Part shown: positions 17,732 to 24,769 of the stretch, piece by piece
How the letters are laid out: each line of letters begins with the position of its first letter
Numbering within the stretch: the stretch's first letter is position 1
NCBI GenBank assembly: GCA_027068485.1
Contig: JAMOSB010000018.1
Span: forward strand, 1-56,948
DNA length: 56,948 bases
Direction of reading: 5' to 3'
DNA from: Sulfurovum sp.
Lineage (GTDB): Bacteria > Campylobacterota > Campylobacteria > Campylobacterales > Sulfurovaceae
The notes under the pieces: generated by a model
The model's database searches: none
What the model saw: only the letters and a program-made list of their open reading frames with translations
What the model was told of the DNA's origin: nothing
Made by a program: the position numbers and the translations under genes

Positions 17732-17849
17732 ATCTTAGGTAGCGATAAGTATAAAAGGGAATGCTTATGTTTAGTTGGGGTAGTTGAACATAAAGACTTT
17801 CTAAAAAAGGAGGAAGAATAAAAAGTTAAAGTCTACCGCTACCTAAGAT
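17732..17849. ncRNA. 118-nt element that folds as a four-way junction
   Basis: A 13-bp perfect terminal helix (17732-17744 with 17837-17849; ATCTTAGGTAGCG) closes three hairpins: 17745-17752 with 17761-17768 (8 bp, one G-U), 17768-17776 with 17782-17790 (9 bp, three G-U), and 17794-17800 with 17828-17834 (7 bp). The arms almost abut, as in a cloverleaf. The 27-base loop of the third hairpin carries GGAGG on the plus strand, thus CCTCC on the minus strand. G-U pairs favour a plus-strand RNA, but a minus-strand TATACT (17858-17863) lies seven bases before the element. It could also be a small inverted-repeat mobile element. It matches no RNA family I recognise. Confidence 0.5.
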
Positions 17850-17857
17850 TAGTTGAC

Positions 17858-17863
17858 AGTATA
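17858..17863 (-). promoter_or_regulatory. Possible minus-strand -10 box for the 118-nt element
   Basis: TATACT read on the minus strand, with seven bases to the first base of the terminal inverted repeat, which is the usual distance to a transcription start. No -35 box is seen. Confidence 0.3.
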
Positions 17864-17889
17864 ACTAAATAAGATAAAATTAGTCTTAA

Positions 17890-18231
17890 TTAAAAGACTA
17901 ACCAGTTCTCTAGGGTAAAAAGCTCTTTTGTAGCAGGCATTCCCCGCCAGCCATTAGGCTCTAAGACCATCAGCTTGCCACCAAAATAGCCTACAATATA
18001 GTGTTCTTTGTAGAGCGGAAACCCTCCACTCTCTAGCATCGCAAAGATATCCTCAAACCCTTTTGGGGTGGTGTAGTAGGAGAGTTCAAAGCTGTGGAGT
18101 GCCACAATGGTGCTTTGGAGTATCTCATTGTTGTGCATACTGGGGCTAAGGGTGTAGTAGCTTGGGTAGCTGAGTGCAGGGTCAGGGAGGAGATCAGAGA
18201 TATAGAGTCGTGTTTTTTTGCTAGGGTACAT
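17890..18231 (-). CDS. Hypothetical protein upstream partner of recO
   Basis: A 113-residue soluble protein, rich in Tyr and Leu in the first half (RLYISDLLPDPALSYPSYY) and ending LFTLENWLVF. No signal peptide, membrane segment or metal motif is visible. It lies 35 bases downstream of recO on the same strand, so it may be expressed with it. I do not recognise a family. Confidence 0.7.
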   Translation of the reverse strand: MYPSKKTRLYISDLLPDPALSYPSYYTLSPSMHNNEILQSTIVALHSFELSYYTTPKGFEDIFAMLESGGFPLYKEHYIVGYFGGKLMVLEPNGWRGMPATKELFTLENWLVF

Positions 18232-21900: not shown

Positions 21901-23385
21901 TACTCGATCGAAGATCTTGCTCAGCTCATCTTTGACCTCAAGCAGATCAACCCTGAGGCGAAGATCGCTGTCAAATTGGTCTCAACTGCGGGAGTAGGAA
22001 CAATTGCAGCGGGTGTTGCCAAGGCGTATGCAGATAAGATTATCATCTCCGGTGCGGATGGTGGTACAGGTGCGGCACCGATAGGCTCTATCAAGTTTGC
22101 AGGTAACCCTTGGGAGCTTGGATTGATCGAAGCCCACAATGCACTCAAAGCCAACAACCTAAGAGGACAAGTGGAGCTAGAGACAGATGGTGGACTCAAG
22201 ACAGGTCTTGATGTTGTCAAAGCGGCAATCTTTGGAGCGGAGTCCTACGCTTTTGGTACGGGTGCCTTGACGGTGATTGGGTGTAAGATCTTGCGTATCT
22301 GTCACCTCAATCGCTGTTCTGTAGGTATCGCAACTCAAGAGGAGAAGCTTCGTGATCACTATGAGGGATCGGTAGAACGGGTTATTAACTACTTTACCCT
22401 ACTTGCTGAAGATGTACGAGAGATCCTTGCATCACTCGGATACACTTCCTTGGAAGAGATTGTCGGACGCAATGATCTATTGGATGTCATTGATGATGCG
22501 TTTGCCAAGAAGTTCTCTTTTGAAAATCTCCTCTACAAACTCGATGGGGATAACACCTGTCAGGTCGCTTCCAATGAGCCGTACGATCAAAATGAGTATG
22601 AAAAAGAGATCATCGAAGCGATAATGCCAGTGATTAAGAATCCTAAAGAGTCTATCGTCATCGAGAAGAAGATTACCAACCTTAACCGAAGCTTCGGTAC
22701 GCGTATCTCTGGTGAGATTGCGAAGTATTATGGGGATAAGGGACTGCCTGATGGTGCGGTCTGTATCAAGCTTGAGGGGACAGCAGGTCAATCACTCGGT
22801 GCCTTCTTGAGTCATGGGGTCAATATCTATGTCAATGGAGCAGGAAACGACTATATCGGTAAGGGGATGAGTGGTGGACGCATTATTATCACCGCAGATA
22901 AAAACGGCTCTAACTTCTCACTAGGCGGAAACACCTGCCTCTATGGTGCGACAGGAGGGAAACTCTATATCAATGGTCAAGTAGGTGAGCGTTTTGGGGT
23001 GCGTAACTCTGGAGCGATTGCGATTGTTGAGGGGACAGGAGATCACCCTTGTGAGTATATGACTGGGGGTGCAGTCGTCATCCTTGGTAAGACGGGGGTC
23101 AACTTCGGTGCAGGTATGACAGGTGGGGTTGCCTTTGTCTATGATGTAGAGCATGAATTTGTAGAGAATATCAACCAAGAGTTGGTTGAGGCACGACGCA
23201 TCGATACAGAAGATACAGATATCGAACGATACTATCTCAAAAAACTCTTAAACGACTACTATAAAGAGACAAAAAGTAGTATTGCAAAAGAGATTCTTGA
23301 TAACTTTAGAGTAGAGATTAGAAACTTCTGGATGGTAAGACCTAAAGATATGAAGGGTCCGTTGAAGATAGAGGAGGGAGAATAA
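18967..23385 (+). CDS. gltB: Glutamate synthase, large subunit
   Basis: A 1472-residue large subunit of NADPH-type glutamate synthase, which turns glutamine plus 2-oxoglutarate into two glutamates. FKDNCGFGLL places the N-terminal nucleophile Cys at residue 12, after an 11-residue propeptide. FSTNTLPEWRLAQPFR and IAHNGEINSV belong to the amidotransferase domain. The FMN/Fe-S synthase domain follows, with GEGGEDEVRFG, KPGEGGQLPGHKV, SGADGGTGAAPI and CHLNRCSVGIATQ. The C-terminal beta-helix domain has GQSLGAFLSHG and GNDYIGKGMSGG. Length fits. gltD begins one base after the stop. Confidence 0.97.
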   Translation: MRDLFTSFKDNCGFGLLASIDNTPSHRNLEDAVTSLSRMMHRGAVAADGKTGDGSGLLLSIPKKFFGKVAKKGGVTLPDLYAVAMVFSKNEEDFTTIEEVCEGNDLKVIYTRTVPVNTSALGEQALASLPMIKQVFVAPSSLMGARRFDALVYLSRKEIEAKISDRNFYIPSFSTSVVSYKGLVMPTHIKEFYQDLGNRDFEISFCLFHQRFSTNTLPEWRLAQPFRTIAHNGEINSVTANRFNVAAKLEALESEVFSEEEMKKLVPIIQSQMSDSASLDNFFEFLRINGMDFFKSARSILPAPWQNAPHMDAKLRAFYEYVSTSFEPWDGPAAVSMTDGRYIGCVLDRNGLRPAKYIITTDNRLLISSEYGVLETPEEKILERGRLQSGEMMGVDLKYGKVLKNEDINDYLKTMEPYDKWLNENMVYLQEHMDDPFSNVDIPEKKQMEAKQRFFNITLEVIEQVFEPMVKEGKEATASMGDDSPLAAFSTKQRNFSDFFKQKFAQVTNPPIDPIREKVVMSLNTGFGEIRNILSDDAEHAKRLKTVSPILSLEKLELLKAFGDEKDPRFDACYKTRTYQTTFEQDLKASLMRLVDTIIEDVKQEGVRTVVLDDRALDATTKVMPMLMVVGRLNQALLEAGERHLVSIIAATGEVYDSHMAASMLAFGVSAIYPHMLYQTVAMIEHRKDANVNLAPTLKKVRKSINSGLLKIMSKMGIATISSYRNSKLFDVIGLSHEIVESCFTDAHALLSGLTYEDIEARITKAHEMAYAQETANRIFPLNIGGFYKYLSGQEFHDYSPATVHAIHALSKSGKRSDFDKLKSLVNDRDKKFIRDFFVLKSDREAISLDAVEPLSAIFKRFSTAAMSLGSISPEAHECLAEAMNTIGGMSNSGEGGEDEVRFGTIKNSQIKQIASGRFGVTPEYLRSAKELQIKVAQGAKPGEGGQLPGHKVSPLIARLRHTMPGVTLISPPPHHDIYSIEDLAQLIFDLKQINPEAKIAVKLVSTAGVGTIAAGVAKAYADKIIISGADGGTGAAPIGSIKFAGNPWELGLIEAHNALKANNLRGQVELETDGGLKTGLDVVKAAIFGAESYAFGTGALTVIGCKILRICHLNRCSVGIATQEEKLRDHYEGSVERVINYFTLLAEDVREILASLGYTSLEEIVGRNDLLDVIDDAFAKKFSFENLLYKLDGDNTCQVASNEPYDQNEYEKEIIEAIMPVIKNPKESIVIEKKITNLNRSFGTRISGEIAKYYGDKGLPDGAVCIKLEGTAGQSLGAFLSHGVNIYVNGAGNDYIGKGMSGGRIIITADKNGSNFSLGGNTCLYGATGGKLYINGQVGERFGVRNSGAIAIVEGTGDHPCEYMTGGAVVILGKTGVNFGAGMTGGVAFVYDVEHEFVENINQELVEARRIDTEDTDIERYYLKKLLNDYYKETKSSIAKEILDNFRVEIRNFWMVRPKDMKGPLKIEEGE

Positions 23386-23386
23386 T

Positions 23387-24769
23387 ATGTTAAGATTTTT
23401 TGATTTAGAGCGTATTGACGCAAAAAAGAGAGATGTGGTAGAGCGAAACAAAGATTTTGATGAGATCTATGAGGTCTTTAAAAGCTCTAAAGCAGGAGAA
23501 CAGTCTGATCGTTGTATCCAGTGTGGTGATCCCTACTGTCACAACGGATGTCCTCTCCACAACCTTATCCCCCACTGGCTCAAAGCCACAGCGAGCAAAG
23601 ATCTTGAGTTTGCCTTTAACCTCTCCAATGAGACCTCTCCATTCCCTGAGGTGATGGGGCGTATCTGTCCACACGATAGACTCTGTGAAGGTTCATGTAC
23701 ACTCAACGATGGACATGGAGCTATTACCATTGGTTCTGTAGAGACATTTGTCAGTGAAGAGGGGTTCAAAAAGGGGCTTAAGCCACAGTTTGCTACCCAG
23801 AAGATTGGTAAAAAAGTAGCGATTATTGGTGCGGGACCTGCGGGGCTCTCTGCGGCTACTTTTCTCCTAAGAGAGGGAGTGGATGTAGAGATCTTTGATA
23901 AGCAGTCTCGTGCAGGGGGACTCTTGAGCTATGGTATCCCAGGGTTCAAGCTTGATAAGCATGTCGTAGCACGCCGAGTGAAACTCCTCGAAGATGCGGG
24001 TGCAATCTTTCATCAAGAGGTTGAGATTGGTAAAGATAAGAGCTTTGAGGCGTTGAGTGAAGAGTTTGACGCGGTATTCTTGGGCTTGGGTGCGGTCAAA
24101 GGACGTAAGTCTGGTCTTGATGGAGATGAGGCGAGCAATGCCTACTTGGCAATGGAGTTCTTGGTGGATATCCAGAAAAAACTCTTTGAAGAGCCACGCA
24201 CGCATAATGTCGAAGTCAAAGAGAAACGCGTGGTGGTCATCGGTGGTGGAGATACCGCGATGGACTGTGTGCGTACTGCACTCAGAGAGAAAGCCAAATC
24301 AGTAAAGTGTCTCTATCGACGCGATGCACACAATATGCCAGGGAGTCGTAAAGAGTATATCAATGCCAAAGAGGAGGGGGTAGAGTTTGAGTTCCATGTT
24401 GCTCCTAAGAAGTTGATTACCAATGATGCGGGTGATATTATCGCTGTGGAGATGGTCAAGACTAAGTTGGGTGAAGCGGATGCTTCAGGTAGACAAAAGG
24501 TCGAGGAGATCGCAGGATCAAACTATACTATCGATGCCGATATTGTTATCTTTGCACTTGGATTTGATACGGTAGCGTATCCTTTCTTTGCGAGTAATGG
24601 TATCGAGACCGATAAGTGGGGTGGGGTGATTGTAGATGCAAACTATGAGACCACACAAGCGGGTATCTATGCGGGTGGTGACTGTCACCGTGGAGCAGAC
24701 CTTGTGGTGACAGCAGCACGCGATGGGCGTGATGCAGCCAAAGCGATCATCAAGAGTTTAAGAAAGTAG
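23387..24769 (+). CDS. gltD: Glutamate synthase, small subunit
   Basis: A 460-residue flavoprotein that passes electrons from NAD(P)H to GltB. The N-terminus holds cysteine clusters (CIQCGDPYCHNGCPL and CPHDRLCEGSC) for two Fe-S centres. VAIIGAGPAGLSAA is the FAD-binding Rossmann loop, GLLSYGIPGFKL a family signature, VVVIGGGDTAMDC the NAD(P)H loop, and YAGGDCHRGADLVVTA the C-terminal FAD contact. It forms an operon with gltB. A weak hairpin follows. Confidence 0.97.
   Translation: MLRFFDLERIDAKKRDVVERNKDFDEIYEVFKSSKAGEQSDRCIQCGDPYCHNGCPLHNLIPHWLKATASKDLEFAFNLSNETSPFPEVMGRICPHDRLCEGSCTLNDGHGAITIGSVETFVSEEGFKKGLKPQFATQKIGKKVAIIGAGPAGLSAATFLLREGVDVEIFDKQSRAGGLLSYGIPGFKLDKHVVARRVKLLEDAGAIFHQEVEIGKDKSFEALSEEFDAVFLGLGAVKGRKSGLDGDEASNAYLAMEFLVDIQKKLFEEPRTHNVEVKEKRVVVIGGGDTAMDCVRTALREKAKSVKCLYRRDAHNMPGSRKEYINAKEEGVEFEFHVAPKKLITNDAGDIIAVEMVKTKLGEADASGRQKVEEIAGSNYTIDADIVIFALGFDTVAYPFFASNGIETDKWGGVIVDANYETTQAGIYAGGDCHRGADLVVTAARDGRDAAKAIIKSLRK

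Follow-up and report, generated by a model that had tools for sequence, protein, structure and literature searches.

RyhB and FsrA, two small RNAs (sRNAs) that spare iron, are under Fur control. RyhB depends on Hfq and FsrA on the Fbp chaperone, and FsrA targets the Shine-Dalgarno sequence with a C-rich motif (PMC9410917). In Staphylococcus aureus, the iron-sparing sRNA IsrR acts independently of Hfq through C-rich regions that pair with Shine-Dalgarno regions, with the gltB2 and fdhA mRNAs among its targets (PMC9410917). A hairpin loop that displays an anti-Shine-Dalgarno (anti-SD) motif is also found in the alpha-r14 or 'cuckoo' RNAs of Rhizobiales, which carry three (or four) CCUCCUCCC hairpins and are often multi-copy (PMC3927594, PMC10746234). 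Within the Campylobacterota, RepG of Helicobacter pylori pairs with a G-repeat through its C/U-rich terminator loop (PMC8295292), and C. jejuni and H. pylori have almost no sRNAs in common except 6S RNA (PMC3847290).

Here, we describe a 118-nt element from Sulfurovum sp., located in a contig of 56,948 nucleotides (the window). We are highly confident that it represents a real, previously unlisted RNA family encoded on the minus strand. Rfam 15 returned nothing at gathering score over the window, and the region itself showed weak chance-level matches only (E 0.29 and 4.8); no published description of the RNA was found in the open-access literature searched.

Structure, strand and distribution of the RNA

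The coordinates of the locus are given in Table 1. The window sequence contains a perfect 13-bp terminal inverted repeat, ATCTTAGGTAGCG...CGCTACCTAAGAT, exactly at the boundaries given in the original prediction, and we set the ends of the gene from helix P1, which this repeat forms. An alignment of 63 copies (A3) was the basis for the covariation analysis and the G-U counts, both of which were run on P1. In this alignment, 95.9% of P1 cells were paired, and for 11 of 14 pairs one or more copies have both bases changed, as in ATCTTAGG/CCTAAGAT, which becomes ATCTCGGA/TCCGGGAT or ATCTTAAG/CTTAAGAT. We counted 98 cells with two-sided changes versus 24.4 +/- 4.3 in shuffled alignments (0 of 500 as many), and the signal collapsed when the partner strand was slid by 1-3 columns.

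Table 1. Features of the sRNA locus and its best-ranked candidate target, in window coordinates
Feature	Position (strand)	Sequence	Basis or remark
sRNA gene, 118 nt	17732..17849 (-); 5' end 17849, 3' end ~17732		63-copy alignment, covariation, promoter spacing
Helix P1, 5' strand	17833..17849 (-)	AUCUUAGGUAGCGGUAG	17 pairs in minus-strand fold; outer 14 covary
Helix P1, 3' strand	17732..17748 (-)	UUAUCGCUACCUAAGAU	17 pairs in minus-strand fold; outer 14 covary
Hairpin P2 with anti-SD loop	17796..17826 (-)		minus-strand minimum-energy fold
Anti-SD core of P2 loop	17809..17814 (-)	UCCUCC, within UUCUUCCUCCUUUU	in 62 of 63 copies
Hairpin P3, CUACCC loop	17764..17794 (-)		fold and alignment; variable, weaker support
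-10 box	17858..17863 (-)	TATACT	conserved 7-8 nt before P1
Palindromic operator, spanning -35 region	17870..17889 (-)	TTAAGACTAATTTTATCTTA	kept before aligned copies; motif recurs in genomes
113-aa gene, no known family	17890..18231 (-)		upstream neighbour on the same strand; outside the RNA gene
Candidate target: gltD start region	23365..23389 (+)	AGAGGAGGGAGAAU	best RNAduplex partner among 389 ORFs, -20.8 kcal/mol

On the minus strand, the P1 columns contain 96 G-U cells versus 9 A-C cells, which places the RNA on the minus strand; the same G-U cells would be mismatches on the plus strand. The original prediction had leaned towards the plus strand from the G-U pairs of a single sequence, and this preference did not survive the comparison of 63 copies. 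Its alternative, a minus-strand RNA with an anti-SD loop, agrees with the covariation of P1, the G-U distribution and a promoter that is conserved on the minus-strand side only. The loop that it had described, GGAGG on one strand and UUCCUCCUUUU on the other, is present. A plus-strand CsrA sponge with GGA loops was rejected in view of the strand evidence, and a small ORF behind the plus-strand GGAGG was dismissed, as its ATG occurs in some species only (AATGAAA versus AATAAAA).

Both strands fold far better than dinucleotide-shuffled sequences, with none of 200 shuffles as good in either case. The plus strand reaches -32.5 kcal/mol (z -4.48) and the minus strand -29.2 kcal/mol (z -5.95), so that the minus strand folds best relative to its shuffles. 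The three abutting hairpins that had been predicted inside the terminal helix were an approximation: the minimum-energy fold of the minus strand, the same in most relatives, has two hairpins followed by a mostly unpaired 3' segment. P2 and P3 are supported by folding of individual sequences, and the CUACC of the P3 loop is retained in most Sulfurovum copies.

The element is single-copy in its own 1.73-Mb genome. The earlier observation that nothing in the window repeats it thus extends to the whole genome, while many orthologues exist elsewhere. When 78 genomes of the genus were searched with the DNA sequence, most had matches; many of these were true homologues, and some were short A/G-rich stretches. 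A pattern combining the operator with P1, matched in named genomes, identifies the genus as Sulfurovum. With a covariance model built from 27 copies, about 60 of the 78 Sulfurovum genomes each had a single strong copy, and three other genera of the same family (g5, g6 and g11) had clear ones. We ran a second model, which included the promoter, over 349 genomes of the order. Strong full-length copies were limited to the family of Sulfurovum and one MAG from another family; other weak matches were about 45-80 bases long. The copy in this MAG (L234; G349:C400:2833-2980) is full-length and high-scoring, but the assembly is 7% contaminated and the copy is therefore probably mis-binned. Five model matches without the operator and with the wrong flanks (L166, L170, L171, L173 and L174) were set aside.

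Promoter, operator and candidate regulator

The 63 aligned copies share a common architecture: an operator near TTAAGASTAATTTTATCTTA, a -10 box, a gap of 7-8 nt, and then AUCUUAGG...CCUAAGAU. The -10 box is TATAMT-like and lies on the minus-strand side at a nearly fixed spacing. In the window, the TATACT of the original prediction is present, at a distance of 8 nt rather than 7, the latter being the spacing in most relatives. The promoter/operator side is conserved across the aligned copies and the 3' side of the gene is not; no recognisable intrinsic terminator follows P1, and no terminator-like site was found. In 24 of 42 loci tested, the 113-aa gene stands no more than 400 bp upstream and has the same orientation; the sRNA gene has other surroundings in the rest, and we therefore regard it as free-standing. 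The 113-aa protein is 45-69% identical in these 24 loci and has no Pfam match. We note that a plus-strand promoter-like sequence (TTGACA-16-TAAAAT, 11 of 12 positions; 17853-17880 of the window) overlaps the sRNA promoter; its TTGACA was not seen in the relatives that we examined.

Allowing at most one mismatch, the operator occurs at about 120 sites in 20 genomes, compared with 0 for reversed-pattern controls. Across genomes it repeatedly adjoins tpx, a desulfoferrodoxin-type superoxide reductase gene, nifS, sufB and mrp/apbC, and also formate dehydrogenase alpha (fdhA), thiC, cytochrome c and acetyl-CoA synthetase-like genes. The families of these adjacent genes were checked, with the acetyl-CoA synthetase-like gene assigned by eye. 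Such neighbours suggest a regulator concerned with Fe-S and oxidative stress. The operator contains no canonical Fur box (TGATAATNATTATCA), and two fur-like promoters gave no score on the operator matrix. In one genome (G004; L185/L212; G004:C1:1023691 and 1024674), a sufB-like gene with its own operator copy is found about 1 kb away from the sRNA gene.

The most likely regulator, judged from sequence, is an Rrf2/IscR-like protein with three conserved cysteines, whose gene lies near rpsO in most genomes read. This gene is preceded by a palindrome resembling TTAGGAGTATTTTACTCTAA in 11 of 11 loci, and these palindromes score 6.8-17.7 on the operator matrix, compared with a maximum of 5.5 among 20,000 background windows. 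They have one half-site in common with the sRNA operator, while the right half differs, so the regulator could be another protein. In one genome (G113), the Rrf2 protein is present and the RNA and operator sites are both absent. Given this genome and the differing half-site, we infer, rather than assign, Rrf2 as the regulator. HP1043/HsrA was rejected, as it recognises a direct repeat, TTTAAG-N5-TTTAAG (PMC5253667), whereas the operator is an inverted repeat. The published box of CosR is too degenerate to be tested against the operator (PMC5435804).

Anti-SD loop and predicted targets

The UCCUCC core has a mean unpaired probability of 0.95, versus 0.43 for the whole RNA, and sits within a hairpin loop of its own in the minimum-energy folds of 47 of 62 homologues. 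The copy in G030 (L146; G030:C1:1445021-1445131) has lost UCCUCC and reads CUUCC. Hfq was not detected in the seven genomes tested.

The P2 loop is complementary to purine-rich start regions. We ranked potential targets among 389 ORFs sampled from about 0.4 Mb of the element's own genome, roughly a quarter of it. At the best-ranked start, that of gltD (named by NCBIfam), inspection revealed 14 contiguous pairs with the P2 loop, including two G-U pairs; no gltD orthologue was found among the loci examined. The start of the fumarate reductase flavoprotein gene (frdA) ranked third of the 389 sampled ORFs, with a predicted pairing of -16.7 kcal/mol. The start of a cytochrome c gene in one species carries a 23-nt perfect complement to the sRNA of the window, and a similar cytochrome c gene in the element's own genome has a weaker one. 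Apart from this cytochrome c start, matches to the loop region in relatives were rejected as targets, most being intragenic or part of a palindromic repeat. Such a repeat, resembling GATTTTTGCCTACTTTTTCTAAAAAAGTAGGAAGAAAACA, occurs in several Sulfurovum genomes (L356-L360, L368, L369 and L375; near position 1000 in each), and its resemblance to the loop region is confined to its A/G-rich core. GltD is an Fe-S flavoprotein. Taken together with the action of IsrR on glutamate synthase and formate dehydrogenase mRNAs, this makes an Fe-S or iron-sparing sRNA the most likely reading.

Proposed role, alternatives and comparison with known systems

The element has the general features of a trans-acting sRNA, namely its own promoter, a conserved RNA structure and an accessible pairing loop. 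The covariation of P1, the strand signal and the conserved minus-side promoter lend support to the small regulatory RNA suggested in the original prediction. On balance, we favour an anti-SD regulatory role under an Fe-S/redox operator, with the sRNA probably released from repression upon damage to, or scarcity of, Fe-S clusters. From these features we infer transcription, the identity of the regulator, the direction of regulation, the targets and the outcome, as follows. The free-standing minus-strand gene would yield a structured RNA of about 118 nt with both ends sealed in P1, and hairpin P2 would present the anti-SD loop. An Rrf2/IscR-like protein, with a similar site at its own gene, would repress the sRNA promoter through the operator over the -35 region, which is common to genes for Fe-S assembly, peroxide and superoxide defence and Fe-S enzymes. 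Cluster damage or iron shortage would lift this repression, and the RNA would accumulate. Without Hfq, it would pair at the ribosome-binding sites of messages that encode dispensable Fe-S and haem enzymes; the resulting block in translation would spare iron and clusters. More tentatively, and short of an even chance in our estimate, an IscR-like (Rrf2) regulator, not Fur, may directly control this Hfq-free, iron-sparing sRNA across Sulfurovaceae, making it a convergent counterpart of RyhB and IsrR that is wired to Fe-S status and has sealed ends and no intrinsic terminator.

We considered three other explanations. The same anti-SD sRNA could be governed by PerR or another Fur-family protein, as an OxyS-like peroxide-response RNA. 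We initially favoured PerR: the operator can be read as a Fur-family 7-1-7 box (GATAAaNtTTATC), its sites precede tpx and superoxide reductase genes and, in part of the genomes, prx-perR, and the Fur-family protein linked to prx comes closest to PerR models, albeit with scores under their cut-offs. This reading was later weakened, and we now consider it unlikely, because G030, the sole PerR-less genome of 30 tested, carries both the RNA and the operator, and because the prx-perR promoters bear a different box in nearly all loci, about half of them without the operator. In addition, the Fe-S assembly genes nifS, sufB and mrp are a better fit for the Rrf2 protein. The prx-perR box itself, roughly AATAAAAATTATYWTT, lies just before prx in nearly all of 28 loci (L248-L276) and is probably a PerR site.

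Rather less probable is an RNA sponge or structural RNA that binds a protein or the ribosome, for instance as a mimic of the 16S 3' tail, with no particular mRNA pairing. The conserved loop resembles the anti-SD of 16S rRNA and would pair with numerous Shine-Dalgarno sites; the sealed ends also suggest that the RNA is stable. The median duplex energy at ORF starts of the window is only slightly lower than random (-6.0 versus -4.5). However, pairing is far stronger at a few start regions than at the others, and the flanks beyond UCCUCC (AUUC...UUUU) are likewise conserved in Sulfurovum. A plus-strand or DNA feature, such as a small mobile inverted repeat or a glycogen-operon structure (3' leader or terminator), is very improbable. 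The inverted repeat does begin 10 bp past the stop codon of a plus-strand gene, and the plus strand also folds well. Against this stand the G-U pairs of P1, conservation on the promoter and operator side but not the opposite one, and the lack of a terminator-like site. Neither the proposed glycogen-cassette leader nor a mobile repeat is supported by an RNA that keeps its promoter while its neighbours change, has a helix that evolves through compensation, and is present once in its own genome and as a single strong copy in relatives, where a MITE would be multi-copy.

Regulation by an anti-SD loop under an Fe-S/redox operator would be of broader interest. Retention of the RNA and operator in four or more genera of bacteria from vents and sediments offers a testable model of Hfq-free riboregulation, and the operator set predicts an Fe-S/redox regulon for the Sulfurovaceae group. 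These sulfur-oxidising chemolithotrophs are heavily Fe-S-dependent and may ration clusters under oxygen or iron stress.

Among described sRNAs, the alpha-r14/cuckoo RNAs resemble this one in displaying an anti-SD motif in a hairpin loop (PMC3927594, PMC10746234), but our copy and most relatives have a single UCCUCC-type loop, and the RNA is single-copy with a closing helix, P1. RepG is likewise a Campylobacterota sRNA with a C/U-rich pairing loop (PMC8295292); the architectures differ, and our RNA has no recognisable terminator hairpin. The proposed physiological role matches the iron sparing of RyhB and FsrA, with the difference that these use the Hfq and Fbp chaperones. IsrR offers a close parallel in mechanism, since we propose the same Hfq-independent, iron-sparing pairing with Shine-Dalgarno regions, with gltB2 and fdhA mRNAs as targets there and gltD as the predicted best-pairing start here. 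IsrR is Fur-controlled, whereas our RNA has an operator common to Fe-S genes and probably recognised by Rrf2; the two have no known sequence relation, and the sealed-end architecture belongs to our RNA. In our model, it would thus be functionally like IsrR, FsrA and RyhB, and unrelated to them.
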